Part shown: one piece after another, positions 38,933 through 57,107 of the stretch
Numbering within the stretch: position 1 is the stretch's first letter
How the letters are laid out: the number at the start of each line of letters is the position of its first letter
Assembly: GCA_023511585.1 (NCBI GenBank)
Contig: JAIMBF010000010.1
Location: 1-57,130 of the forward strand
DNA: 57,130 nt
DNA from: Terriglobia bacterium
Lineage (GTDB): Bacteria; Pseudomonadota; Alphaproteobacteria; Acetobacterales; Acetobacteraceae
Direction: 5' to 3'
The notes under the pieces: model-generated
Seen by the model: only the letters and a program-made list of their open reading frames with translations
Told to the model about the DNA's origin: nothing
The model's database searches: none
Program-made: the position numbers and the translations under genes

Positions 38933-39015
38933 GACGCCCGATAGTGCGCAGACCTTCCGCGGTGTGGGGCCGGATGCGCTTGCTCATTTGCCGCTTGCTC
39001 TAAAAGGCGCGGCCC

Positions 39016-41229
39016 ATGGCTTTCGGTTTTCGTGGCGTGACATTCGCGAAACGCCGGCCTATCGATCTTGCAGAGCGACTGGCCCATTTCCCGCGAGAAG
39101 GCCTGCCTCTGAAGGCTCCCGTCCTCGTTCACTGGGATGAACATCAGATTCCGTTTCTGGAAGCGGAACACGACGAAGACCTCGCCGTCGCGCTCGGTGT
39201 TCTCCATGTTCATCTTCGCTGGGGGCAAATAGAAATGATGCGCCGGCTTGCGCTCGGGCGCCTTTCCGAGATGATCGGGCCGGCCGGCATAAAGATCGAT
39301 CACGCGCTGCGCGCTCTCGGCATTGCGCGAACCGCAGCCGCCATCATGCCGCTTTTGCCAGAGCAGACGGCGCGATGGCTAAAATGTTTCATCGACGGTA
39401 TTAATCATGCGATCGAACATCTGCCGAAAATGCCGCCAGAATTTCGAATTTTGGGGATCAAGCGCGAACACTGGCGGGTTGAAGACGTTCTGGCTCTCGG
39501 GCGGCTGGTTTCTGCGGACGTGACATGGTTAAGCCTGATCCCCTTGTTGCGCGAGAAAAACGAAGCGCTCGTCTTGGAAATTTGGCGTAGGCTTGTCGGC
39601 CTAAACAGAGATCGTGCGGAAAGGGCGCCGTCAGGCCGGCTTCTGCGCCGCGGATTGGACCAGTTCGCCGGGCTTTCCTGGAGCGGCGGCAGCAATTCGT
39701 TCGCCATTGCACCCTCCCGAAGCGAATCCGGCGCGGCCATGCTCGCGAGCGATCCGCATCTTGCCGCGACAATCCCCGGTCCTTTTCTTATCGCCGGATA
39801 CAAATCCCCTTCCTTCCATCTTGTCGGGCTGATGATCCCGGGGCTCCCGTTTGTCGCGCTCGGACGCAATCAGTGGATAAGCTGGGGCGGCACAAACCTT
39901 CACGCGGCGAGCAGCGAGTTGTTCGACATTTCCGATCTCCCTTTGGAAGAAATAACAGAACGCCGCGAGCGGATCCGCGTGCGCTGGTGGCGGGATCGCA
40001 GCGTGGCAATTCGCGAATGCGCTTATGGGCCGGTTATTTCCGACTTGAAAATCATCCCTCGCAAAAAAGGCCGCACGCTGGCGTTGTCTTGGATGGGAAG
40101 CAAGCCGAGCGATGAATTCACCGCAATGCTCCGCCTGAACCAAGCACGGAATTGGGATGATTTCAAAGCGGCGCTCACCCTTTTTGCGGTTCCCGGGCAA
40201 AACTTCACCTACGCGGATGTGGACGGCCATATCGGAAAGCTGATAGCGGCGAAGCTTCCGAAGCGCCCGCTTGCACCTCCGCATTCTCCGATCCTGCCGC
40301 TGAGTTTCGCCGCTCATTGGCAGAACTCTGTAACGGCAGCCGATTTGCCGGCAATTTTTGATCCTGCCGAAGGATTTATCGCATCGGCGAATGAAAGACC
40401 GTCGGGGTTTCCGGTTTCCGTCGGTTATCTCTTTTCTTCAAATAACAGAATCGAGCGGCTCAAGTTTTTGCTCGGCCATAAACACCGGCACTCGCTCGCG
40501 GATATCGGCGGGATCCAACGCGATATTTCCGTGCCCTCCAGTCGCGAAATCCGCGACGAATTGCTGCAAAGCCTGCGTTCGGCAAAGATGCTTGAGAATG
40601 AAACGGCACGGCATCTGGCCCGGGAGCTCGAAGCGTGGGACGGAAACTATAGCGCGAATTCGCGCGGGGCCTTGTGTTTTGAGTTGTTCTTTTTTCTGGT
40701 CGCGCTGAAGACGAGCGGCAGCAAACGACTCTCCCTCTATGCAAAAGGCTGGAACGCCTGGGAACTGATGCGCGAAGACATCGCCTCGGCAACGCTAGAG
40801 CAGCGCGAAAGAGCGGTTCGAAAGGCTCTGCCCGTCTTGGCGCGAAGATTAAAAAATTTCCATGTTTGGGGCGATATGCATCGGCTTCGCCTTCGGCATT
40901 TCGCGGGCTTTTTCCCGATCATCGGGCGCCGGTTTCATTTCCTGGATTGGCCCGCGGCGGGAAACAGCGAGACCGTCCTGAAGACCGCACATGCCCCGAC
41001 GGATCGCCGCCACGCGGTAAGGCTTGCAACCACAGCGCGGCACATTTCGGATCTCGCCGATCTCGATTGCAATTACTTTGTTCTGCTCGGCGGCCAGGAC
41101 GGGTGGCTCGGCAGCACGACAATGCTCGACCAGGTTCCATTGTGGCAAAAAGGCGACTACATTCCGGTGCCGCTCAGTTTGGAAGCGGTGCGGCGTCGGT
41201 TTTCCATCCACATGGAACTCAAACCGTGA
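39016..41229 (+). CDS. Penicillin acylase-family Ntn hydrolase without signal peptide
   Basis: A 737-residue member of the penicillin/acyl-homoserine-lactone acylase family, amide hydrolases that mature by self-cleavage. The alpha-chain region has PVLVHWDEHQIPFLEAEHDED and the GRLSEMIG motif. The maturation site lies at GGS226NSF, so S226 would become the N-terminal nucleophile of the beta chain; ASDPHL and FVALGRNQWISWGGTN follow as expected. Unlike most relatives no signal peptide is seen, so it is probably cytoplasmic. It starts a three-gene unit with a GH3-like ligase (36-base gap) and a secreted beta-helix protein. The true substrate is unknown; N-acyl amino acids or acyl-homoserine lactones are candidates. 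Confidence 0.82.
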   Translation: MAFGFRGVTFAKRRPIDLAERLAHFPREGLPLKAPVLVHWDEHQIPFLEAEHDEDLAVALGVLHVHLRWGQIEMMRRLALGRLSEMIGPAGIKIDHALRALGIARTAAAIMPLLPEQTARWLKCFIDGINHAIEHLPKMPPEFRILGIKREHWRVEDVLALGRLVSADVTWLSLIPLLREKNEALVLEIWRRLVGLNRDRAERAPSGRLLRRGLDQFAGLSWSGGSNSFAIAPSRSESGAAMLASDPHLAATIPGPFLIAGYKSPSFHLVGLMIPGLPFVALGRNQWISWGGTNLHAASSELFDISDLPLEEITERRERIRVRWWRDRSVAIRECAYGPVISDLKIIPRKKGRTLALSWMGSKPSDEFTAMLRLNQARNWDDFKAALTLFAVPGQNFTYADVDGHIGKLIAAKLPKRPLAPPHSPILPLSFAAHWQNSVTAADLPAIFDPAEGFIASANERPSGFPVSVGYLFSSNNRIERLKFLLGHKHRHSLADIGGIQRDISVPSSREIRDELLQSLRSAKMLENETARHLARELEAWDGNYSANSRGALCFELFFFLVALKTSGSKRLSLYAKGWNAWELMREDIASATLEQRERAVRKALPVLARRLKNFHVWGDMHRLRLRHFAGFFPIIGRRFHFLDWPAAGNSETVLKTAHAPTDRRHAVRLATTARHISDLADLDCNYFVLLGGQDGWLGSTTMLDQVPLWQKGDYIPVPLSLEAVRRRFSIHMELKP

Positions 41230-41265
41230 AGCACGATCGACGATGCAGATCCCGAAGCCGGCGCG

Positions 41266-42816
41266 ATGTTTGACGCAACCCCGCTTCTTCGTCTTTTCGC
41301 CGGCCATCGCCTCAAAAAGCTTGCGCATGACGATGCGCAGCAGACGCAGAGGCTTGTATTGTTGCGGCTCCTGCGACGTGCACGCCATACCGAGTTCGGC
41401 CAAAAACACAGGTTTGCAGATATTTCCGATATAACAACGTTCCAACGGCGTGTCCCGCTCCGGCATTACGAGGATTTTTGGCGCGAATATTGGGGCCGCT
41501 CTTTTCCGATATTGAAAAATCTCTGCTGGCCGGGGACGATTCCCTACTTTGCGCTAACCTCGGGAACGACCACGGGAAAAACGAAATATATTCCCGTTTC
41601 TCGTGAGATGATTGCGAGCAACAAGCGCGGGGTGCTGGACGCATTCACCTATCATCTGCGCGCGCATCCGAAAAGCCGCGTGCTTGCCGGGAAGAATTTT
41701 ATGCTTGGCGGCAGCACTTCCCTCAAACAGGAAGCTCCGGGCATCTATAGCGGGGATCTCAGCGGGATCGCGGCACGCGAAGTGCCGTGGTGGGTTCGCC
41801 CTTGGTTTTTCCCGTCGCTCCATTACGCCTTGATCGCGGATTGGGAAACCAAAATCGATACACTAGCGCGGCTTGCGTTGCACTCGGATATCCGCACGAT
41901 CGCCGGCACGCCCAGCTGGGTTCTGCTGTTCTTCGCCAAACTCGCGGAAATTCGGCCGGATTTGCCGACCAGAACCACCAGTTATTTCCCCAATCTCGAA
42001 CTCTTTCTTCACGGCGGCGTGAACTTTGAGCCTTATCGCCGACAATTCGAGAATCTTTTTCAAGGAAGCACCGTCGATATGCGCGAAGTCTATACGGCGA
42101 GCGAGGGTTTCATCGCCGTTGCCGATCGCGGCTATGGCGAGGGGCTTCGCCTGATGACCGATCACGGCATCTTTTACGAATTCGTGCCCGTTGAAGAGAT
42201 CGAAAGCGAAAAGCCTCCCCGGCATTGGCTTGGTTCCGTGGAGCAAGGCGTCAACTACGCCGTGGTCTTGTCGACTTGCGCGGGACTTTGGTCCTACGTT
42301 CTCGGCGATACGGTGCGGTTCGTCGAGCGTCATCCGCCGCGCATTCTGGTGACCGGCCGCCTTTCTTACTTTCTCTCCGTATTCGGCGAACACTTGATCG
42401 GAGAGGAGATAGAAGCCGCGGTCGAAACAGCGGCCTCGGCCATTGGTCAGCACGTCGTGGACTATACCGTCACACCGATTTACCCGTCCGAGCCCGGGCA
42501 GCGGGGCGGCCATCTTTTCTTTGTTGAATTTTCCACGCGCATCGATGACCTTTCGCTTACGCGTTTTGCCCAGGCTCTCGATCACGCGCTCGGTGATCAA
42601 AACGAAGATTATCGGACGCATCGCCTCAAGGACTTCGGTATGGCCGCGCCGCGTATCGCCGCGGTTTTACCGGGCTCGTTCGCGGCGTGGCTGAAAGCCC
42701 AAGGCAAACTCGGAGGGCAAAACAAGGTTCCACGGGTGCTTCACGATCCCGCCGCGGTTCGTGCCTTAGAAGAATTTCTCGAGCGCGAGCAGAGAATTTA
42801 CGGAGCCACATCCTAA
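41266..42816 (+). CDS. GH3 auxin-responsive-promoter family acyl-adenylate/amido synthetase
   Basis: A 516-residue GH3-fold enzyme of the adenylating superfamily. In plants GH3 proteins join acyl acids such as indole acetate or jasmonate to amino acids; bacterial members are poorly studied. The ATP motifs are present: ALTSGTTTGKTKYIP (96-110), YTASEG (276-281) and YVLGDTVRF (344-352), then TGR (363-365) and the hinge region GEHL (374-377). The length is close to plant GH3s. It sits between an Ntn amide hydrolase and a secreted beta-helix protein with short gaps, so the three are very likely one operon. I infer it forms an amide conjugate; the acid and amine are unknown. Confidence 0.85.
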   Translation: MFDATPLLRLFAGHRLKKLAHDDAQQTQRLVLLRLLRRARHTEFGQKHRFADISDITTFQRRVPLRHYEDFWREYWGRSFPILKNLCWPGTIPYFALTSGTTTGKTKYIPVSREMIASNKRGVLDAFTYHLRAHPKSRVLAGKNFMLGGSTSLKQEAPGIYSGDLSGIAAREVPWWVRPWFFPSLHYALIADWETKIDTLARLALHSDIRTIAGTPSWVLLFFAKLAEIRPDLPTRTTSYFPNLELFLHGGVNFEPYRRQFENLFQGSTVDMREVYTASEGFIAVADRGYGEGLRLMTDHGIFYEFVPVEEIESEKPPRHWLGSVEQGVNYAVVLSTCAGLWSYVLGDTVRFVERHPPRILVTGRLSYFLSVFGEHLIGEEIEAAVETAASAIGQHVVDYTVTPIYPSEPGQRGGHLFFVEFSTRIDDLSLTRFAQALDHALGDQNEDYRTHRLKDFGMAAPRIAAVLPGSFAAWLKAQGKLGGQNKVPRVLHDPAAVRALEEFLEREQRIYGATS

Positions 42817-42837
42817 AGCGATCGGGAGAGAGTACTA

Positions 42838-43944
42838 GTGCGACTTTTACGAAATCTGCCTGCATTTCTTGCAGCGATAACAACTCTTGCTTTGTTGTTT
42901 TCCGCTCCGGAAGCACACGCCTGCCTCGCGGGAGGCGATGAGCGAACGATTAACGCCGCCTTGCAGGGTCCGGGCACAAAAGCCGAGCTTTGCCCGAGAG
43001 CGATATTCCTGCTTCATGCACCGATCGTGCTTTCTGCCGACGGGCAGGAAATTGCGACCGCCGGCTATCCCACTGACGAAACCCGAGCGATTGTGCGCGT
43101 TGTCGGCCGCTCGCTTGCCACGGCCATCACGTCGCGCGTCTCGAATATCGCGATCCGCAACATCGAGGTTGACGGTTCGCGCCCGGCGCTCGGCCCGATT
43201 CCGGGCGGCAGAGCTTTGATCGAGATCGGCGGGGCCGTCAGCAATATCCGTGTTGATTCCATAAGTTCTCATGATCCGCGAGGATGGTCGGCGCTGCACG
43301 TCTTCGAAGGCGGCGGAAAATGCCGCGGCGCTTTTGTAACGAACAACCGCATCGGCCCTGCCGGCACGCCGGATGGGCACTGGGCAGACGGTATTTCCTT
43401 CGCATGCCGAAACGGCTTGATTGCCGGAAACGTTATCACGGATGCCTCGGATGGCGGAATTGTGATCTTCGGCGCGCCGGGAACCGTCGTGGAGAATAAC
43501 CTTGTTCGCACGCGCAGGAATATTTTGCTCGGCGGCATCAATTTGGTGGATTATCAGCCGTTTTTTGGTGATTACACGGGCACCATCGTCCGCCACAACC
43601 GCATCGAGGCGGATGGCGGGTTTATCAAAGTAGGCATCGCAATCGGCCCTGCAACGTGGCAACCCGATAAGGGGCTCGTCAATTCCGGCGGGCAGGTGAT
43701 CGACAATCTGATCACCGGTTCCGGTATCGGTTACGGGATTGTGGTGAGCGGGGTAAACAACTTTGTTGTTATGAATAACCGGGTGGCTGCAAAACTCGGC
43801 GGAGCAGTGGGTCCTGGATGCCCTCGGAACCAAATAGCGCCGGGGCAAGCGCTGGTGGTGAATCCCGGAAACAGCCAGGGGCGATTTCAAGCCGATTTTC
43901 TGCAGGCTCCCATCCAATACGCGATTTGCATTCAGCCAAGATAA
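42838..43944 (+). CDS. Secreted right-handed parallel beta-helix protein
   Basis: A 368-residue protein with an N-terminal signal peptide (AFLAAITTLALLF, predicted cleavage after AHA). The body shows the turn pattern of parallel beta-helices, with repeated N-N-x and G-N segments: VTNNRIG, IAGNVITDA, VENNLVRT, RHNRIE, IDNLITGSG and MNNRVAAKL. This is as in pectate-lyase-like carbohydrate-active folds, although I see no certain catalytic set. The start is GTG 42838 with GGGAGAG upstream, 21 bases after the GH3-like gene. Pectate lyase C-like or alginate-epimerase-like chemistry is possible, or a non-enzymatic surface role. Confidence 0.75.
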   Translation: MRLLRNLPAFLAAITTLALLFSAPEAHACLAGGDERTINAALQGPGTKAELCPRAIFLLHAPIVLSADGQEIATAGYPTDETRAIVRVVGRSLATAITSRVSNIAIRNIEVDGSRPALGPIPGGRALIEIGGAVSNIRVDSISSHDPRGWSALHVFEGGGKCRGAFVTNNRIGPAGTPDGHWADGISFACRNGLIAGNVITDASDGGIVIFGAPGTVVENNLVRTRRNILLGGINLVDYQPFFGDYTGTIVRHNRIEADGGFIKVGIAIGPATWQPDKGLVNSGGQVIDNLITGSGIGYGIVVSGVNNFVVMNNRVAAKLGGAVGPGCPRNQIAPGQALVVNPGNSQGRFQADFLQAPIQYAICIQPR

Positions 43945-44418: not shown

Positions 44419-45072
44419 ATGGTGCCGCAACCGCACAGCATTTCCATAACCTTGCCGCACGGCGGCGAGGGCTTGCTCGGCCTTCCCGCAGCCCAAGCAC
44501 AAGGGATCGTGCTTTTTGCGCATGGCAGCGGCAGCAGCCGGCTCAGCCCGCGCAACACCATGGTCGCCCGCTCGTTGCAGCAATCCGGCTTGGCGGTGCT
44601 GCTGTTTGATTTGCTCACAGAGGCAGAAGCCCAACACCGGGGCAAGGTTTTTGACATCCCCTTGCTCGCCGAACGCCTTGCACAAGCCGCGGATTGGGCG
44701 GCTAACGATCCGGCCATAAAGGGTCTTCCGCTCGGCTTCTTCGGCGCCAGCACCGGAGCGGCCGCGGCGCTCGTGGCCGCGGCAATGCGAGAGGATGTGC
44801 GCGCCATCGTCAGCCGTGGCGGCCGGCCGGATCTCGCGGCGGAGGCGCTCGCGCAGGTGAAAGCGCCGACATTGTTCATCGTCGGCGGTGCGGATCCTCT
44901 GGTGTTAGAGCTGAACCGAGAGGCGCAACGGATGATGCGCTGCGAAACGCGTCTGGAAGTGATCCCCGGCGCAACGCACCTTTTTGAAGAACCCGGCGCG
45001 CTGGAAGCGGTCATCGAGCTTGCGCGCGCGTGGTTTCATAAACACCTGACCGCGGAAATAAAGGTCGGCTGA
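44419..45072 (+). CDS. Alpha/beta hydrolase (dienelactone hydrolase-like)
   Basis: A 217-residue single-domain alpha/beta hydrolase. The oxyanion segment is [15 protein letters not shown], the nucleophile S111 lies in [13 protein letters not shown], the acid is probably the D of [10 protein letters not shown], and the histidine is in [10 protein letters not shown]. It has no signal peptide. The pattern resembles the short dienelactone-hydrolase-type proteins often found beside phosphoribosyltransferase domains; no such partner is here. It may be the first gene of the operon with the acyl-CoA synthetase, 128 bases downstream. Confidence 0.82.
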
Positions 45073-50588: not shown

Positions 50589-51680
50589 TCACACATGGGG
50601 TCCAAGCGAATCCGCAATAAAATGGTCTTCGTCAAAATGCCCAAAAAGCCGGCCGGCAGAACCATCGCTCCATAAGTACAACTCATGAGTCGCCGGCGGC
50701 ACAGGATTTCCTTTAAGTTCCCTCAAAGTATTTGATTTAGGGAGTTCTTTTCCGAGATCGAGATGCGCGCTGAGGGCATCAAGGGCGTCGTTGACTTCTA
50801 CGCGTCGCTTGTCTTCCAACTTGTCGAACGCTTTTCTGACTGCATTTGAGATGGCCAATTTGGGTGAGAGGGGCTCGAGCAAACGCTCCTTGAGTAGCTC
50901 TTTGCGCACGCGACTCCACACAACATCGCCCCACACACTGGCGGTGACTTGGCCATCGTCCGAGAGAAGCAGCGCATCGGGGATGCCTGCGGCTTCGCTC
51001 TCCGCGACAGAATACCCATGTTCAAGTTTTCGGAACACGGTTAGATGCTTTTGAATCTCGTCCTTTTCCACAAGCTTTATGGGCAGCCGCGGGATTTCCA
51101 TCAGCATCGGCGCGCCTTCGAACAAGAACACGCAGCGATCCGCATACAGCATGCCGAGCGCTTGCAGATACGCATTCACGGATTTGAAACCCCCTGTCAG
51201 ATTGAAAAGAACGGTCCAGCCTTGTTCCCGGTGGCCCGGCAGCAATTCCTCAAGCTGTTTGGTGACATCGGCCAGTGCTTCCCGAAATGATGGGAAATCG
51301 TCAGTTCGCAACCCCGGTGCCTCGATTATTTGCACCGGCTGTCCGTCCTTTTCCAATACTGCTTGCACAATTTTGGCGCACGCTTTGCCTGCGGCCGTAT
51401 CGGTTTGAATGAGAAAATGTTGGATGCGAGACGGTGCCCATCGTTCAAGCACGGCTGCAATGCCGTTCAACTCTGCACTCAGCCGACGACGCTCGGTAAT
51501 TTTGGCATCCAAAAGTTGCTGCTTGCGATGTGCGGCGTGCTTTTGGAGCCGTTCAGATTCCGTTTTGGGAAGATCTTTCTTGTTTGCGATCTTGTTCAAC
51601 CACGATCTGGTGTTTTCATCGGCGTTGTTCGTCAGCGAACTCGTTCCGCAAGTTGACAGAAGCAAAATCTGCGAAGTCAT
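50589..51680 (-). CDS. CRISPR-associated CARF-domain protein (APE2256-like) with RelE-like C-terminus
   Basis: A 363-residue type III CRISPR ancillary protein. The N-terminal CARF domain (about 1-205) starts with ILLLSTCGTSSLTN and contains the FNLTGGFKSVNAYLQALGM segment (159-175), as in APE2256/Csm6-like proteins that sense cyclic oligoadenylate. A middle winged-helix-like region leads to a C-terminal 80 residues (about 284-363) with a RelE-type pattern: FDKLEDKRRVEVNDALDAL, LRELKG, THELYLWSDGSAGRLFGHF. No HEPN R-x4-6-H motif is seen. I infer a cOA-activated RelE-like ribonuclease. It overlaps the cmr6 stop by ATGA. A ring nuclease role for the CARF part alone is possible. Confidence 0.78.
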   Translation of the reverse strand: MTSQILLLSTCGTSSLTNNADENTRSWLNKIANKKDLPKTESERLQKHAAHRKQQLLDAKITERRRLSAELNGIAAVLERWAPSRIQHFLIQTDTAAGKACAKIVQAVLEKDGQPVQIIEAPGLRTDDFPSFREALADVTKQLEELLPGHREQGWTVLFNLTGGFKSVNAYLQALGMLYADRCVFLFEGAPMLMEIPRLPIKLVEKDEIQKHLTVFRKLEHGYSVAESEAAGIPDALLLSDDGQVTASVWGDVVWSRVRKELLKERLLEPLSPKLAISNAVRKAFDKLEDKRRVEVNDALDALSAHLDLGKELPKSNTLRELKGNPVPPATHELYLWSDGSAGRLFGHFDEDHFIADSLGPHV

Positions 51681-52801
51681 CTCCGATGCGCTCCTCTTTT
51701 GCCCCCGCCCTGCTTTTTGCCCGCCGCCCGGCTTGCCCGTGCTTCGTCGGCAGGAGTGGGATAGCGAAAATGAATCTCCCGTTTTGTCGCGCTGGCGACA
51801 ATCAGTTCCAACACGTCGCCCGGTTTCTTCTCAGAGGGGACATCGTTTGTGTTCTGGATAGGGCCGCTCAGGCCGGAAAGCGCATGCATTGCCCGCCAGC
51901 CGCCCTTTTTCGTCCGTTCTTCGAGCAGTTGCGCTTCGACCCGCTCGCCAGGATTCGGCAAAGGCCCGGAGCCGCCGACCGAAGGATGCACAAGCCGCCC
52001 GTAGCCGCTGCTGGTCTTGCCGCCTACGCCCCACTCAGCCAGCGCTTCGCACAAGATCTTCATGGCAAGTTTGGTCCAGGCCTTTGCCTGCTCGGGCGGC
52101 GTCTCGGCCGGGCCAGACCAGGAGATACGCAGATCGAAGCTCCCCGCCACCGAGAGAAAAGAAACCGGATTTGGGCTGTCGAAATCCGTGGGCGGCGCCT
52201 CGTTCATCTGCCACTTCGGATGGTGCGGGGTCATCACATCCAGGCGCAGCGCGCCCGCGTTCAGCGATTCCGGCACGATCCAGGCATCGTGGAAAGTGAC
52301 GATGCCGCCATCCTCCGTGGTGCCGAAGAGCAGCCGATAATAGTCGCCTTCCGGCTCGTTTTCGGAACGCTTGCGCCGGAACCGCTTGTTATCGTCAGGA
52401 GCGCTGTTACCAAGATGGCGCTGCCCCCAAACCGTATCGCAATAGTGCGCGGCCAGGCCCTTGAGCGCCGATCCCGGAATGATCGGAACGCCGTAGGTGT
52501 GGTGAAGCCGCAAGCCTGTTTCCAGAACACTCTCGGCGCCGAGCCCGACGATCAGCCGGCCGGCCGTGGCGAGCTCTGCCGATGCGTGCGGGCCGCCCTT
52601 GGCGAAGGAGTTGGCCCAGCGCTTATAAGCCGCCTGGTAAAGCTTCCCCAGCGGGCCGCTTCTCGCGGCATTGCGCGCCGCATCGAGGAGCTTTCGGCGC
52701 TCATCCGGATTCGACTGCCCGAGCAAATATTTCTGCAGGATCAGGCCGGGGTGATTACTGTTCTTGCGATCGTTATCCAAGTTGATCAGCGCCTGCCGCA
52801 T
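51677..52801 (-). CDS. cmr6: Type III-B CRISPR RAMP protein Cmr6
   Basis: Cmr6 is a Cas7-like subunit at the head of the Cmr backbone near Cmr1. The 374-residue protein has the RAMP entry motif VPIIPGSALKGLAAHYC, the conserved FHDAWIVPE strand and the glycine-rich loop WGVGGKTSSGYGRL. The C-terminus is strongly basic (GKKQGGGKRGAHRR), which could contact RNA. The ATG 52801 follows GGAG at suitable spacing, five bases after the cmr5 stop. Confidence 0.9.
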   Translation of the reverse strand: MRQALINLDNDRKNSNHPGLILQKYLLGQSNPDERRKLLDAARNAARSGPLGKLYQAAYKRWANSFAKGGPHASAELATAGRLIVGLGAESVLETGLRLHHTYGVPIIPGSALKGLAAHYCDTVWGQRHLGNSAPDDNKRFRRKRSENEPEGDYYRLLFGTTEDGGIVTFHDAWIVPESLNAGALRLDVMTPHHPKWQMNEAPPTDFDSPNPVSFLSVAGSFDLRISWSGPAETPPEQAKAWTKLAMKILCEALAEWGVGGKTSSGYGRLVHPSVGGSGPLPNPGERVEAQLLEERTKKGGWRAMHALSGLSGPIQNTNDVPSEKKPGDVLELIVASATKREIHFRYPTPADEARASRAAGKKQGGGKRGAHRR

Positions 52802-52806
52802 GGCAT

Positions 52807-53154
52807 TCACTCCGGCTCTCTGGCCTCGACATAGCGTTTCAGCCAACCGGCAGCCTGAAGCGCGTTCCGGCTGAGGCGGATATAGGCAGGGACGGAGATA
52901 TTGCGCGTCGTCGTTTCGAGCTCCCCTACCGTCGCTACATCGGAATGCCCCGCAGCCGCGAGCACCGCGGCGAGGTCCTCTAGGTACGCGTCTCGGTTTT
53001 TCGCCCGGGCGAAAGCAACCGCTTGGGCAAGGCCAGAGGCGTGAATCAGCGAGGGAAACGAGCGTGCGAAGCTTGCGAACTCACGATCCGGTTTCCGGGC
53101 AACGATTCGTTCGTAGGCGGCCTGCGCCATCTTTTGGCTGATGGTGCGGTCCAT
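52807..53154 (-). CDS. cmr5: Type III-B CRISPR small subunit Cmr5
   Basis: Cmr5 is the all-helical small subunit that stacks along the Cmr complex (Cas11 role). The 115-residue protein fits in length, with the N-terminal MDRTISQKMAQAAYERI helix, KNRDAYLEDLAAVLA and the C-terminal AYIRLSRNALQAAGWLKRYV helix usual for the family. ATG 53154 is two bases from the cmr4 stop. Low sequence conservation in this family means the call leans partly on position between cmr4 and cmr6. Confidence 0.88.
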   Translation of the reverse strand: MDRTISQKMAQAAYERIVARKPDREFASFARSFPSLIHASGLAQAVAFARAKNRDAYLEDLAAVLAAAGHSDVATVGELETTTRNISVPAYIRLSRNALQAAGWLKRYVEAREPE

Positions 53155-53156
53155 CC

Positions 53157-54074
53157 TTAGCCCCCCTTGCCTGCCGACGTGAACACACACCGCACGCGCC
53201 CGCGGCCGACGCTCGCCTTGCCGCCGATCTGCAGCAGCAGCTGCTCGGTTGCGAAGTGTCTGATAAGTTCGTCCGGCGTGATGCTGTTCGCTTCCGGCGA
53301 ATAGGTGCGGTCGCACGTGATCAGCCCGGCCAGGATGGTCTCCGCCGGCAGCGCTTCCTCGTTCCAGAGCGCTCCTTCGACCACCGTCTTGAGCTCATCA
53401 TCGATGCGAACGCGCGCGGCAACCTCGGTTCCGGTCTCCGTGAGAAAATCAAAGACCACGTCGGGCAGGATCGCGAACCTCTCGATAAAGAGATCGTGCC
53501 ATGGCTTATCCGCCTTGTCCGGGAACACCCATTCCGCCAGCCGCTCGGCCCATTTTGCGGCCGCGTCGCACTTCTTCGCGGCAAAGTCGAGGTCTTCGAG
53601 ATAAATACGGCCGCTATCCGCGAGCTTCGTCTGATCGGGCGTGTGAATTTCGCCCTCGTTCACCTGCGGAGGCTCGGGGAGAGGATTCGCCAGGCCGGCG
53701 AACGCCAGATCGCGCCGGAGCATTTTCAGCGCCAGCGGTGAGGTGCACCAGGCGAAGGTTCCATAAAAACTTCGGACCGGCAGGCAGACCAGGCGCGCAT
53801 CGGTCGGGATCAGGGCGCCGGCGTTGGAGGCGTTGCTCTCATCAGACGCAAGCCCGAACGCCAGGCGGAGCTTCATGGAATCCGGAGAACGGCGCTTCCC
53901 CTCCGTGGCGCCGTAATAATCGGCCCAGACGCCCTTGAAGGCCGAGACAGGAATAACCGGCCAGTTCGTCACCTTGTCGCGGTGGATCGGCAGGTCGATA
54001 TACCCGACGCCGCGGCCCGTTCCCACATGCGTCGGCGACACGGTGTGCAGCCAGTAGACGCGCGTATGCTCCAT
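53157..54074 (-). CDS. cmr4: Type III-B CRISPR backbone nuclease Cmr4
   Basis: Cmr4 (Cas7) forms the filament that cuts target RNA at six-nucleotide intervals. The 305-residue protein has the expected N-terminus SPTHVGTGRGVGYIDLPIHR; D27 aligns with the catalytic aspartate of known Cmr4. It continues with PVIPVSAFKGVWADYY and the glycine-rich end LQIGGKASVGRGRVR. ATG 54074 is 16 bases after the cmr3 stop. Target cleavage is therefore expected to be active. Confidence 0.92.
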   Translation of the reverse strand: MEHTRVYWLHTVSPTHVGTGRGVGYIDLPIHRDKVTNWPVIPVSAFKGVWADYYGATEGKRRSPDSMKLRLAFGLASDESNASNAGALIPTDARLVCLPVRSFYGTFAWCTSPLALKMLRRDLAFAGLANPLPEPPQVNEGEIHTPDQTKLADSGRIYLEDLDFAAKKCDAAAKWAERLAEWVFPDKADKPWHDLFIERFAILPDVVFDFLTETGTEVAARVRIDDELKTVVEGALWNEEALPAETILAGLITCDRTYSPEANSITPDELIRHFATEQLLLQIGGKASVGRGRVRCVFTSAGKGG

Positions 54075-54090
54075 GCGCCCCTCCCTTCCT

Positions 54091-55293
54091 TTACCAGACG
54101 CCCCAGGCGGCGAGGCCGAAGCCGTCGAGCCGATCTTGCGCATCGTCGCTGACCGGTTTGAGCCAGCGTTCCGCGAGAACCGACGCCTCGCCTTGAACGA
54201 CTTCGAAGAAGTAGACGCCGCCCGCGGGAACCATGCGTTTGACCGGCTTCGGACCTAGCGGTTGGTCGGGCAGCTTGGCGAGCGACCAACCCGAAACCGC
54301 CTTCCAACGCGCGATGCTGACGCCCTTGAGACGGAGCGTTAGCTTCTCGGCGCCCGGCGGTGCGCCCTCGCCACTTGCGTTGAGCCAGCCCGGCTTCCAG
54401 CCGTCTTTAAAAATTGCCGGCGTGGCCAAGGCCATGCGCACATGGCGCGTTTCCGGCTTTGCCAGCGCGTTTCGGATGTTCTCCGGGCAGTGCCAGAGAT
54501 CGGCCTCTTGCCGCGCTCGCCAATGCACCAGCCGGCGCTCCCCGCCGAGGGGATGCAGCGCATCAAGCTTTTCCATGACCTCGCCGCACCAGCCATCGGC
54601 GCGGATGCGGGCGCAGAGCGTGATGGGGACGAATTTCCGCTCCGGCCCTGCGCCAGCTCCCCCGGGCGTACCTTTGGCTTTCGGATCGGTCCGGTAACGC
54701 GGGAGGTGCGAGAGCGCGAGCGCCGCCGTTGTGAAAAGCTGGCTCTCTTCGGCGGCGCCGGCAGCGGGGTCGATTTTGACGTGCGTCCGCTCTTCCCTTT
54801 CCGCCGCGCCAAGGAAGTGCTCATCGAAGGTGATATCTTCCTTGGCCAACCACGCGGCATAACGATCCAACGGCCACCAGACGGGCGCTTCCGCGGGTTT
54901 GAAGTCCTCAGATGCCTGTGCCTGCGTCAGGCCGACGGGCAGGAGGCCTGGCGAGGGCCAATCGCATCCGCTGCCTTCATCCTGGGGTTGCGGCCTCGCG
55001 CGTAGCGGACCGTGCTCTGGATGGACGACACAGTCTTCCGGCGCCGGCAGATAAAGCTGTCTGGCGGCACAGGGCAACGGCCCCGCGACTTCCACGCGCA
55101 GCAAGTCTTTGACGTTGTCCGCCGAAAAATCCCGCTTCGCGGCCTTTCCCAAGGTTGTGCGCAACGAGCCGGCCAACACGGATGGCAGCAGCCAGTCCAG
55201 GCTTCGCATCCGGTTGCCCCCGGCCGCGCCGAACGGCCTGCCGTCGCGGGCGATGATCGGATCGCGGCAGATAATCTCCAAGATCGTTGTCAT
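54091..55293 (-). CDS. cmr3: Type III-B CRISPR protein Cmr3
   Basis: Cmr3 (Cas5-like) caps the 5' handle of the crRNA and contacts Cmr2. The 400-residue protein begins with the characteristic CRDPIIARDGRPFG segment, then DWLLPSVLAGSLRTTLGK; GVSIARWKAVSGW and the glycine-rich C-terminal GFGLAAWGVW are consistent with the family. ATG 55293 overlaps the cmr2 stop by ATGA. Confidence 0.9.
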   Translation of the reverse strand: MTTILEIICRDPIIARDGRPFGAAGGNRMRSLDWLLPSVLAGSLRTTLGKAAKRDFSADNVKDLLRVEVAGPLPCAARQLYLPAPEDCVVHPEHGPLRARPQPQDEGSGCDWPSPGLLPVGLTQAQASEDFKPAEAPVWWPLDRYAAWLAKEDITFDEHFLGAAEREERTHVKIDPAAGAAEESQLFTTAALALSHLPRYRTDPKAKGTPGGAGAGPERKFVPITLCARIRADGWCGEVMEKLDALHPLGGERRLVHWRARQEADLWHCPENIRNALAKPETRHVRMALATPAIFKDGWKPGWLNASGEGAPPGAEKLTLRLKGVSIARWKAVSGWSLAKLPDQPLGPKPVKRMVPAGGVYFFEVVQGEASVLAERWLKPVSDDAQDRLDGFGLAAWGVW

Positions 55294-57107
55294 AGCGAAC
55301 CCGCCCCCGCGGCCGGGCTTACTGCGGCCGATTTTGGAGCGGCGCCGATTGCTTTGGCCACCAGCAATTGATCGGCGAGGCCGCGCAGGGACTGGGCATC
55401 TTGAACATGCGCTTGGATCAGCTTCTTGATATCTTTCATTTTGCTTGCTCCGCGCGGCTGCTTTCGCTCCAGAACCGCGAGGACATCGCGCCGGATGGCA
55501 TTTGTGACGGTTTCGGCAGGCCAACGCTCGTAGACCCGTGCCAGCGCGTGGAGATCGTAGGGAAGCGTGCCGGGAACGGACTGATCGGCTAGCCAATCCG
55601 CCAATTGCCGCAGGTGGTGCGCGGGGTTTGTCGGCGCGCCGTCGGCTGGCCAGTTCATGCGGACGGCAACCGGTTCCCCTCCGCGTTTCACGACGTGCAC
55701 GGCCAAACCGTTGCGATCGGCCTGGTGGGGGAGATCGCCGGGGCGCGGTTGCTTGGCGTGCTTTTCCGCCGCGCGCCCGTAACGGAGCAGATCCTCCAGC
55801 GGCTCCATGAAGTGGGCGATGGCCAGGCCGACGGAGAGCGTGAGTTCGGGGTTCGGCCGCTGCGACCAGTCTGCGAGTGCTGTGCCGAAGGCCTCGTGAA
55901 GCGCATGTGCACACTCCAGGCAGCGGTCCAAGGGTACGAAGGCCAGCACGTCGTCACCGCCGGAATAAACCAAGACACCTTGATGTTTCCCCACGATCCT
56001 AGCGGCTTTGCCGGCAAATCCCGCCAATGCCTGCGAAAATTGCCGATGCTGATCGGGCGATGCGAGCTGGGCGAGCGCGGCGCCCATGCGGTCTCCGTCG
56101 GCGACCAGCACGGCAAGGTAGGGGTTCGGCTCTGAGGGCAAGCCTTTGCCTTTGGCTGCTTGGGAGACCTTATCCAGCGCTCGTACGAGCTGCATAAATG
56201 TGGAATCGTCAGTGATCCCCGTCTCCTTCAGAAGATCGGGATGCCGGGAGCGATAAAGCACGCTGCCTTCATAGGGAAAGGCCGTGTATTGGAGGTGGCC
56301 GCGTGCCCCGGCAGTATTCAATTTGTGCACCACATCGGGCCCGAGCGCATCGCATGCCGCGGCCAGCGGCCGGAGGTTGATACCCTTCGATTGCAAAAGC
56401 CGGATCCAGGGATCGGCCGCAATGCGCGCCACCGAGGGATAACTTGGATTTCCATCCTTGGGCTGCCAGGCGCGCTTGACCAAGCCGATAACGTCGAGCT
56501 GCTCCCCCGCCCGAAGACGCAGTCGGCCGCGCAACTGCTGAGAGGCCGCAGACGGCAGGCCGAGGACGCTTTCCCGCAACCCGTCTAGCGAGGATTTCGG
56601 CACGCCGGCACGGCCCTTGGCCGGTGGAAAATCGCGGCAGCGTTTGCGCGCCGCGAGCAAGCGCATCAGCGCGGCGCGATCTTTTTGGTAGGTCTGCAGC
56701 GCGTAGGGGCGCCATGCGGCATAGAATTCGATCACGTCATCGACTTGATCGTTCCAGATCTCGGCTCGGATGACCCCTTGGTATTGACGGCAGACCTGGT
56801 CGGCGAACGCGCGCCAGCATTGTCCGGCGGCGTTCTTCGCCTTGCCGGCAACGGCCGCAGGATCGGTGTCGTTGAGTTCGGCCAGGATCACGTTGGCGAC
56901 GTTGAGCAGCGAGTCGGGCGCGAGGTCCGCGTTGCCGGCGGGTGCGGGGAAGATGAGCTTGCCGCCTTGGTCTTGCACGGATTTGGCTGCGGCCTTGCTG
57001 ATCTCCGAGAGCAGGTAGGAGCCGAACCAGAGGTCTCGCGTGCGTCGCGCGGCGGCGATGAACTCCTGCACCGGGCCGATGCTGAGCGCGAGGAGATAGC
57101 CGGTCAT
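55290..57107 (-). CDS. cmr2: Type III-B CRISPR large subunit Cmr2 (Cas10), HD domain absent, GGDD cyclase intact
   Basis: Cmr2 is the Cas10 subunit that makes cyclic oligoadenylates on target RNA binding. The 605-residue protein begins directly with the Palm-associated motif LSIGPVQEFIAAARRTRDLW (residues 8-27). The N-terminal HD DNase domain of about 200 residues found in many Cas10 proteins is missing. The first Palm strand is LVADGDRMGAAL (334-345) and the cyclase motif is YSGGDDVLAF with GGDD at 383-386, intact. ATG 57107 overlaps the stop of the gene upstream, probably cmr1. DNA cleavage is therefore unlikely; signalling is expected. Confidence 0.93.
   Translation of the reverse strand: MTGYLLALSIGPVQEFIAAARRTRDLWFGSYLLSEISKAAAKSVQDQGGKLIFPAPAGNADLAPDSLLNVANVILAELNDTDPAAVAGKAKNAAGQCWRAFADQVCRQYQGVIRAEIWNDQVDDVIEFYAAWRPYALQTYQKDRAALMRLLAARKRCRDFPPAKGRAGVPKSSLDGLRESVLGLPSAASQQLRGRLRLRAGEQLDVIGLVKRAWQPKDGNPSYPSVARIAADPWIRLLQSKGINLRPLAAACDALGPDVVHKLNTAGARGHLQYTAFPYEGSVLYRSRHPDLLKETGITDDSTFMQLVRALDKVSQAAKGKGLPSEPNPYLAVLVADGDRMGAALAQLASPDQHRQFSQALAGFAGKAARIVGKHQGVLVYSGGDDVLAFVPLDRCLECAHALHEAFGTALADWSQRPNPELTLSVGLAIAHFMEPLEDLLRYGRAAEKHAKQPRPGDLPHQADRNGLAVHVVKRGGEPVAVRMNWPADGAPTNPAHHLRQLADWLADQSVPGTLPYDLHALARVYERWPAETVTNAIRRDVLAVLERKQPRGASKMKDIKKLIQAHVQDAQSLRGLADQLLVAKAIGAAPKSAAVSPAAGAGSL

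Follow-up and report, generated by a model that had tools for sequence, protein, structure and literature searches.

Do an amide hydrolase and a GH3-family amido synthetase that lie side by side in a bacterial genome act on the same compounds, and is the gene behind them their partner? This question is raised by a 57,130-nucleotide stretch of an Acetobacteraceae genome (assembly GCA_023511585.1, contig JAIMBF010000010.1, positions 1 to 57,130), hereafter the window. Three open reading frames (ORFs) follow one another there on the + strand, with intergenic gaps of 36 and 21 bases: a penicillin-amidase-family N-terminal nucleophile (Ntn) hydrolase (PA; 39016..41229, 737 amino acids (aa)), a GH3-family acyl acid-amido synthetase resembling the lyso-ornithine lipid synthetase OlsH (GH3; 41266..42816, 516 aa), and a β-helix protein. 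A preliminary description of this DNA took the three genes for one unit, a pair that makes and breaks an N-acyl amine together with an exported partner. Its account of gene order, of PA as a penicillin-acylase-like Ntn hydrolase with the nucleophile S226, and of GH3 as an enzyme with intact ATP motifs agrees with the ORF coordinates, alignments and motif comparisons below. We find that PA and GH3 are a conserved two-gene module whose pairing is strongly non-random, and that the β-helix gene lies outside it. Among the matches listed in the literature searched, which left out most subscription journals, we found no description of the PA-GH3 pair.

The pairing was measured in samples of 299 genomes from the window’s order and 385 from its class (‘order’, ‘class’, and ‘family’ are the database’s own grouping codes). 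GH3 matches occur in 41 of the 299 order genomes, 39 of them strong and two distant (G224 and G118). A profile search for the orthologous group to which the window’s PA belongs finds that group in 35 of the 39 strong-GH3 genomes and in none of the 260 others (both genes, 35; GH3 only, 4; PA only, 0; neither, 260; p 1.5e-41). Complete group members in the order exceed 1000 bits, whereas the best match among the 260 genomes without a strong GH3 reaches 353.9 bits; the matches listed exclude the weakest, but the genome table still gives each genome’s best match. Counted as PA-bearing are 33 genomes with one match above 1000 bits, G198 (829 + 341 bits), and G215 (328 + 325 bits). The G215 pieces, which lie at contig ends, are not outstanding by score alone and were counted since one of them ends directly before its GH3. 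The four strong-GH3 genomes without PA are G199, G270, G081, and G280 (truncated at a contig end). With thresholds fixed beforehand from the order search (E 1e-120 for PA, E 1e-30 for GH3), the class sample gives 39 genomes with both genes, eight with GH3 only, 18 with PA only, and 320 with neither (p 1.4e-31); this p value and that for the order overstate independence, since the genomes are related. The 39 class genomes with both genes span 23 family codes.

Where both genes are present they are usually neighbors. In 29 of the 39 class genomes PA and GH3 lie within 500 bases of each other on one strand, as read by eye from the coordinates; one of the remaining ten, G411, is interrupted by a contig end. 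PA stands directly upstream of GH3 in 33 of 40 fetched order loci, the window not counted, and G173 has the two genes on different contigs. We also read loci from named records. A search with the GH3 profile gave 575 relatives, of which the best 80 were kept; they are nearest kin and no fair sample. PA was seen at 47 of these 80, and at 41 of the 59 that have more than 2.8 kb upstream of GH3; 15 of the 33 loci without PA have 2.8 kb or less. Named carriers of the pair include Azospirillum halopraeferens (L115), Aquibaculum arenosum (L132), Defluviicoccus (L109, L129, and L147), and Acidithiobacillus sulfuriphilus (L149); in L129, PA is on the opposite strand and faces GH3, still as its neighbor. 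In 21 of 33 order pairs and 11 of 41 named-record pairs the stop of PA and the start of GH3 overlap, with the start codons of these relatives picked by script. Ten of the 33 genomes with a PA-less GH3 locus have a PA of the group elsewhere, and the short flanks read there contain no GH3; in one of them (G331) PA runs into a contig end and so may adjoin GH3 after all. Some of these genomes recur in the class sample (e.g., PA has the same place and score in G315 and G395), which makes the present counts and those above interdependent. No constant third neighbor of the pair was seen; by eye, ABC permease, regulator, and kinase genes stand beside some order loci. In seven PA-less loci a fatty-acid-desaturase-like gene, also noted by eye, lies downstream of GH3, and the synthetase may serve in another lipid context there.

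PA has the marks of the penicillin amidase family, with a Penicil_amidase domain (PF01804, E 1.5e-142) and the N-terminal Ser, His23, and Asn of the β chain. The corresponding residues S226 (codon 39691..39693, + strand), H248 (39757..39759, + strand; β-chain position 23), and N459 (40390..40392, + strand) are invariant in an alignment of 39 sequences that includes the window’s. S226 is the expected N-terminal nucleophile after autoprocessing, a role assigned from the family, and N459 is presumably the oxyanion-hole asparagine. The predicted model has a pLDDT of 90.2; residues 198–223, just before S226, have low confidence, which is what one expects of a spacer peptide. Autoproteolytic cleavage before S226 is predicted from the family, and this spacer-like stretch is the one sign of it in the model. 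Against the profile of its own group, in which it is itself a row, the window’s PA scores 1094.6 bits. One variant was seen in L109 (5709–9539, Defluviicoccus sp. SSA4), where the PA reading frame is split in two and GH3 is intact.

The solved structures that share the PA fold include D-succinylase, MacQ, PvdQ, and the glutaryl and cephalosporin acylases. The closest is D-succinylase of Cupriavidus (7ea4, with 7eby as a further entry), at Z 46.2 and rmsd 3.0 over 674 residues with 25% identity for 7ea4. We take this enzyme to act on N-acyl amino acids; it differs in taking a short acyl group, and we know of no GH3 neighbor for it. PvdQ and MacQ have the same Ntn fold, and listed PvdQ entries contain bound dodecanoic acid and myristate, so the fold accepts long chains. 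PA is unlike PvdQ at the level of sequence: it reaches 22.4 bits with the NCBIfam PvdQ model (NF051460), for which the cut-off is 950. Because the fold includes D-succinylase, MacQ, and PvdQ, it could accommodate both N-acyl amino acids and long acyl chains.

GH3 matches all three Pfam domains of its family (N domain, E 4.4e-34; central, E 4.1e-14; C domain, E 2.5e-20), and its predicted model (pLDDT 90.0) aligns with plant GH3 structures at Z 34.5–34.7 over 489–491 residues in the best rows. The plant synthetases (JAR1, GH3.5, and GH3.6) share its fold (Z 34.4–34.7 in the best rows of all comparisons) and nucleotide motifs but only ∼20% identity, and no plant-hormone link is indicated for the window’s protein. 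A nearer relative is OlsH of Singulisphaera acidiphila, a GH3-like lyso-ornithine lipid synthetase described in 2025 (PMC12493201). According to the main text of that paper, OlsH uses ATP to join free fatty acids to ornithine, giving N-acyl ornithine, and a second chain is added by OlsI, an alpha/beta hydrolase (PMC12493201). The window’s GH3 resembles OlsH in family, length, and all three nucleotide motifs as printed there: motif I, TSGTTTGKTK (41557..41586, + strand); motif II, YTASE (42091..42105, + strand); and motif III, GLWSYVLGD (42283..42309, + strand). OlsH S115, which is reported as essential in vitro, corresponds to S99 in motif I (PMC12493201). OlsH is the best NCBIfam model for the window’s GH3 (NF052613), at 581.5 bits under a cut-off of 620; six GH3 relatives score 531.4 to 613.2 bits, and none of the 299 order genomes passes the cut-off. 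The surroundings of the two enzymes differ. OlsH has OlsG and OlsI as neighbors, in an operon with OlsI in planctomycetes, whereas the window’s GH3 has a penicillin-amidase-family protein; S. acidiphila lacks an OlsB-type enzyme (PMC12493201), whereas the window’s genome has one. The same text reports OlsH homologs in alpha-proteobacteria and suggests that those outside planctomycetes could act on other amino acids (PMC12493201). The earlier view that no bacterial system of this kind had been characterized needs amending, since the GH3 half has OlsH as a characterized relative, though the words ‘acylase’ and ‘amidase’ are absent from the main text of that paper (PMC12493201). Two GH3 genes in tandem were noted in L079 (73–3124), and two side by side in G526.

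Where PA acts appears to vary within the group. We scored 75 intact PA N-termini for a lipobox: 36 carry the canonical form, 21 an LPxC form, and 18 none. The rule followed PROSITE PS51257, outside which the LPxC form falls, and L038 was scored as lacking a lipobox even though LAGC is found there behind a nearby Arg. Since L042 and L071 are the same locus, the 75 rows represent 74 loci; six further PAs with cut N-termini were left out. These N-termini suggest that most PA relatives are exported lipoproteins. In the readable N-terminus of the window’s PA neither a signal nor a lipobox is present, and four codons ahead of its start the frame is closed by a stop. In the PA tree (FastTree) the window’s PA belongs to a 15-row clade with an SH-like support of 100, in which a lipobox is absent throughout. 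The term ‘intracellular’ in the preliminary description therefore fits this clade but is not a trait of the module, in which 57 of the 75 N-termini have a canonical or LPxC lipobox. Because lipobox forms occur on both sides of the midpoint root (a root placed by rule rather than inferred), the simplest history would be that an exported, membrane-tethered PA lost its export signal in the window’s clade. By eye, several PAs of this clade begin with a hydrophobic or amphipathic segment followed by positive charges; the window’s own N-terminus is short and lacks these features. A nine-codon reading in the PA frame (MRLLICRLL plus stop, 38974–39003), which ends four codons before the PA start, might be a signal peptide remnant or chance. 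The GH3 data do not reject the no-lipobox PA rows as one clade (p-AU 0.266; 14 versus 41 rows, quick tree), and we do not claim partner swapping between PA and GH3 as additional evidence of linkage, though the two trees look different.

Because GH3 is close to a maker of N-acyl amino acids and its pairing with an amidase is non-random, a make/break pair is the most economical reading. We propose, at about even confidence, that PA and GH3 make and cleave one pool of N-acyl amino acids, an aminolipid, at the membrane, with substrates assigned by analogy. By the example of OlsH, cytoplasmic GH3 would activate a free long-chain fatty acid with ATP and with it acylate the alpha-amine of ornithine or of a comparable basic amino acid, yielding an N-acyl amino acid (lyso-aminolipid). 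PA, if it behaves as its family does, would cleave itself to expose S226 and then hydrolyze the amide of such lipids to fatty acid and amino acid. The lipoprotein-like PA of most relatives would do so on the periplasmic side of a membrane, and the PA of the window’s clade, with no lipobox, would share the cytoplasmic side with GH3. Together the two enzymes would control how much of the N-acyl amino acid lipid is present, or turn it over when needed, alongside the ornithine lipids that OlsB makes.

The OlsB background bears on this proposal. The window’s genome encodes an OlsB-type acyltransferase that reaches 273.9 bits against an OlsB model cut-off of 320; it alone was also scored against the OlsB models, and it lies below their cut-offs, so that in the genomes that follow ‘OlsB-type’ denotes a match to the domain PF13444. 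The domain is present in 71 of 72 order genomes tested, a set made up of all 41 with a GH3 match and 31 without. Given these enzymes, ordinary ornithine lipids can probably be made without GH3. In the class we tested 80 genomes, chosen by handle number (18 of 18 with PA only, 8 of 8 with GH3 only, 30 of 39 with both, and 24 of 320 with neither), and found the domain in 48 of 48 PA-bearing genomes, 6 of 8 with GH3 only, and 17 of 24 with neither (p 0.0002, PA versus neither). This hints that PA acts on aminolipids from either source, GH3 or OlsB.

Several observations weigh against a shared pool. The 18 class genomes with PA and no GH3 and the eight with the reverse, together with an 11-row GH3 clade (L073, L076, L078, L088, L134, and kin) that has no PA beside GH3, mean that neither gene needs the other; three loci of that clade have less than 2.8 kb upstream, and the genome of L073 has PA elsewhere. 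By eye, no replacement synthetase stands beside PA in 15 regions from PA-only genomes; in one genus with PA and no GH3 (L163, L164, and L165) PA follows a glutathione S-transferase-like gene. OlsB is common, and its association with PA may partly reflect genome size. The nearest solved structures (D-succinylase, followed by the glutaryl and cephalosporin acylases) are those of enzymes for short polar acyl groups, and the amino acid used by GH3 may differ from that of OlsH, given its score below the model cut-off. Finally, GH3 and most PAs would sit on opposite sides of the membrane, and a simple cycle would then require lipid transfer.

Alternatively, the two enzymes may work in series. PA, as a lipoprotein, would cleave N-acyl compounds from outside, such as homoserine lactones or foreign aminolipids, and GH3 would re-join the freed fatty acid to an amino acid. 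The membrane-anchored, exported look of most PA relatives favors such scavenging, as do the structural kinship with PvdQ and MacQ, which cleave acyl homoserine lactones, the 18 PA-only class genomes, and the use of free fatty acids by OlsH described in its main text (PMC12493201). Scavenging alone, however, would not call for such close linkage with a single synthetase; the window’s clade has no lipobox, and the PvdQ model falls far short of its cut-off. We give scavenging a modest chance. A relay is also conceivable, in which GH3 makes the N-acyl amino acid with ATP and PA moves the acyl group from S226 to another membrane amine instead of water. Acyl-enzymes are intermediates of Ntn hydrolases, and one enzyme with this fold, isopenicillin N acyltransferase (2x1c; Z 27.5, rmsd 3.3, 340 residues, 11% identity), is a natural acyltransferase. 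Neither ATP nor acyl-CoA is available outside the cytoplasm, where most PAs would sit by their predicted compartment. Yet no acceptor is known and the structures closest to PA are hydrolases, which leaves transacylation a small chance. A bolder version, which we put forward as a doubtful conjecture, is an ATP-charged acyl shuttle: GH3 would store the energy of ATP as an N-acyl amino acid, membrane-tethered PA would spend it outside the cytoplasm on another amine, and the window’s clade would since have moved PA back into the cytoplasm.

The two genes may instead have separate tasks, with GH3 as a second route to ornithine lipids, PA acting on an unrelated amide, and their neighborhood reflecting shared regulation or co-transfer only. 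That each gene also occurs alone and that an OlsB-type enzyme is usually present anyway fit this view. It does not readily explain why one PA group has been selected from a large family (by the margin in bits given above for the order), or why the association extends over the 23 family codes of the class; we consider it rather unlikely. Very improbable is a three-gene system with the β-helix protein as a working partner. That gene (42838..43944, + strand; 368 aa, GTG start) encodes a right-handed β-helix protein (Pfam Beta_helix, 29.5 bits against a cut-off of 25.9), putatively exported by a signal peptide seen by eye, and the 21-base gap and a similarly low GC content speak for such a partnership. 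Among 60 genomes searched, though, a homolog occurs in the window’s own and in none of the other 59, nor, the window’s own aside, in sets of 30 loci (E 1e-5) and 40 loci (E 1e-4); a PDB sequence search with the protein gave nothing at E 1. We therefore reject the trio as a conserved unit. Of the co-occurrence and the three-gene unit proposed in the preliminary description, the PA-GH3 part is borne out in order and class, and the trio was found in no second genome of the 60.

Because the β-helix gene lies close behind GH3 and is equally low in GC (57.8, 56.7, and 58.1% for PA, GH3, and the β-helix gene; 62.1% for the window), it may have arrived on the same fragment as the pair. In the 11 relatives read, other genes lie downstream of lspA: a DUF3035 match in nine and then, in several, an ORF that is mutL-like by eye. 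This would suit a variable or inserted stretch after lspA, and the earlier suggestion of acquired DNA is plausible from the low GC and these other genes, though not proven. An alpha/beta hydrolase gene (44419–45072) begins 474 bases past the β-helix gene; its match to a model for homoserine lactonase is weak (36.1 bits, cut-off 400). The sets of 30 and 40 loci did not show this hydrolase. OlsI bears the same broad family label, and any closer kinship of the two would be conjecture. Farther on, the − strand carries Type III-B CRISPR (Cmr) genes (50589–57107) encoding Cas_APE2256, two RAMP proteins, Cmr5, Cmr3, and Cmr2/Cas10.

OlsH is the sole bacterial GH3-family enzyme with a shown function that we met in this analysis. 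An amidase partner conserved across a class offers a direct handle on the substrate of GH3 homologs outside planctomycetes, and points to active turnover of amino-acid lipids in addition to their synthesis. The change of compartment that this partner appears to have undergone between clades is testable in environmental strains, such as those of Azospirillum.

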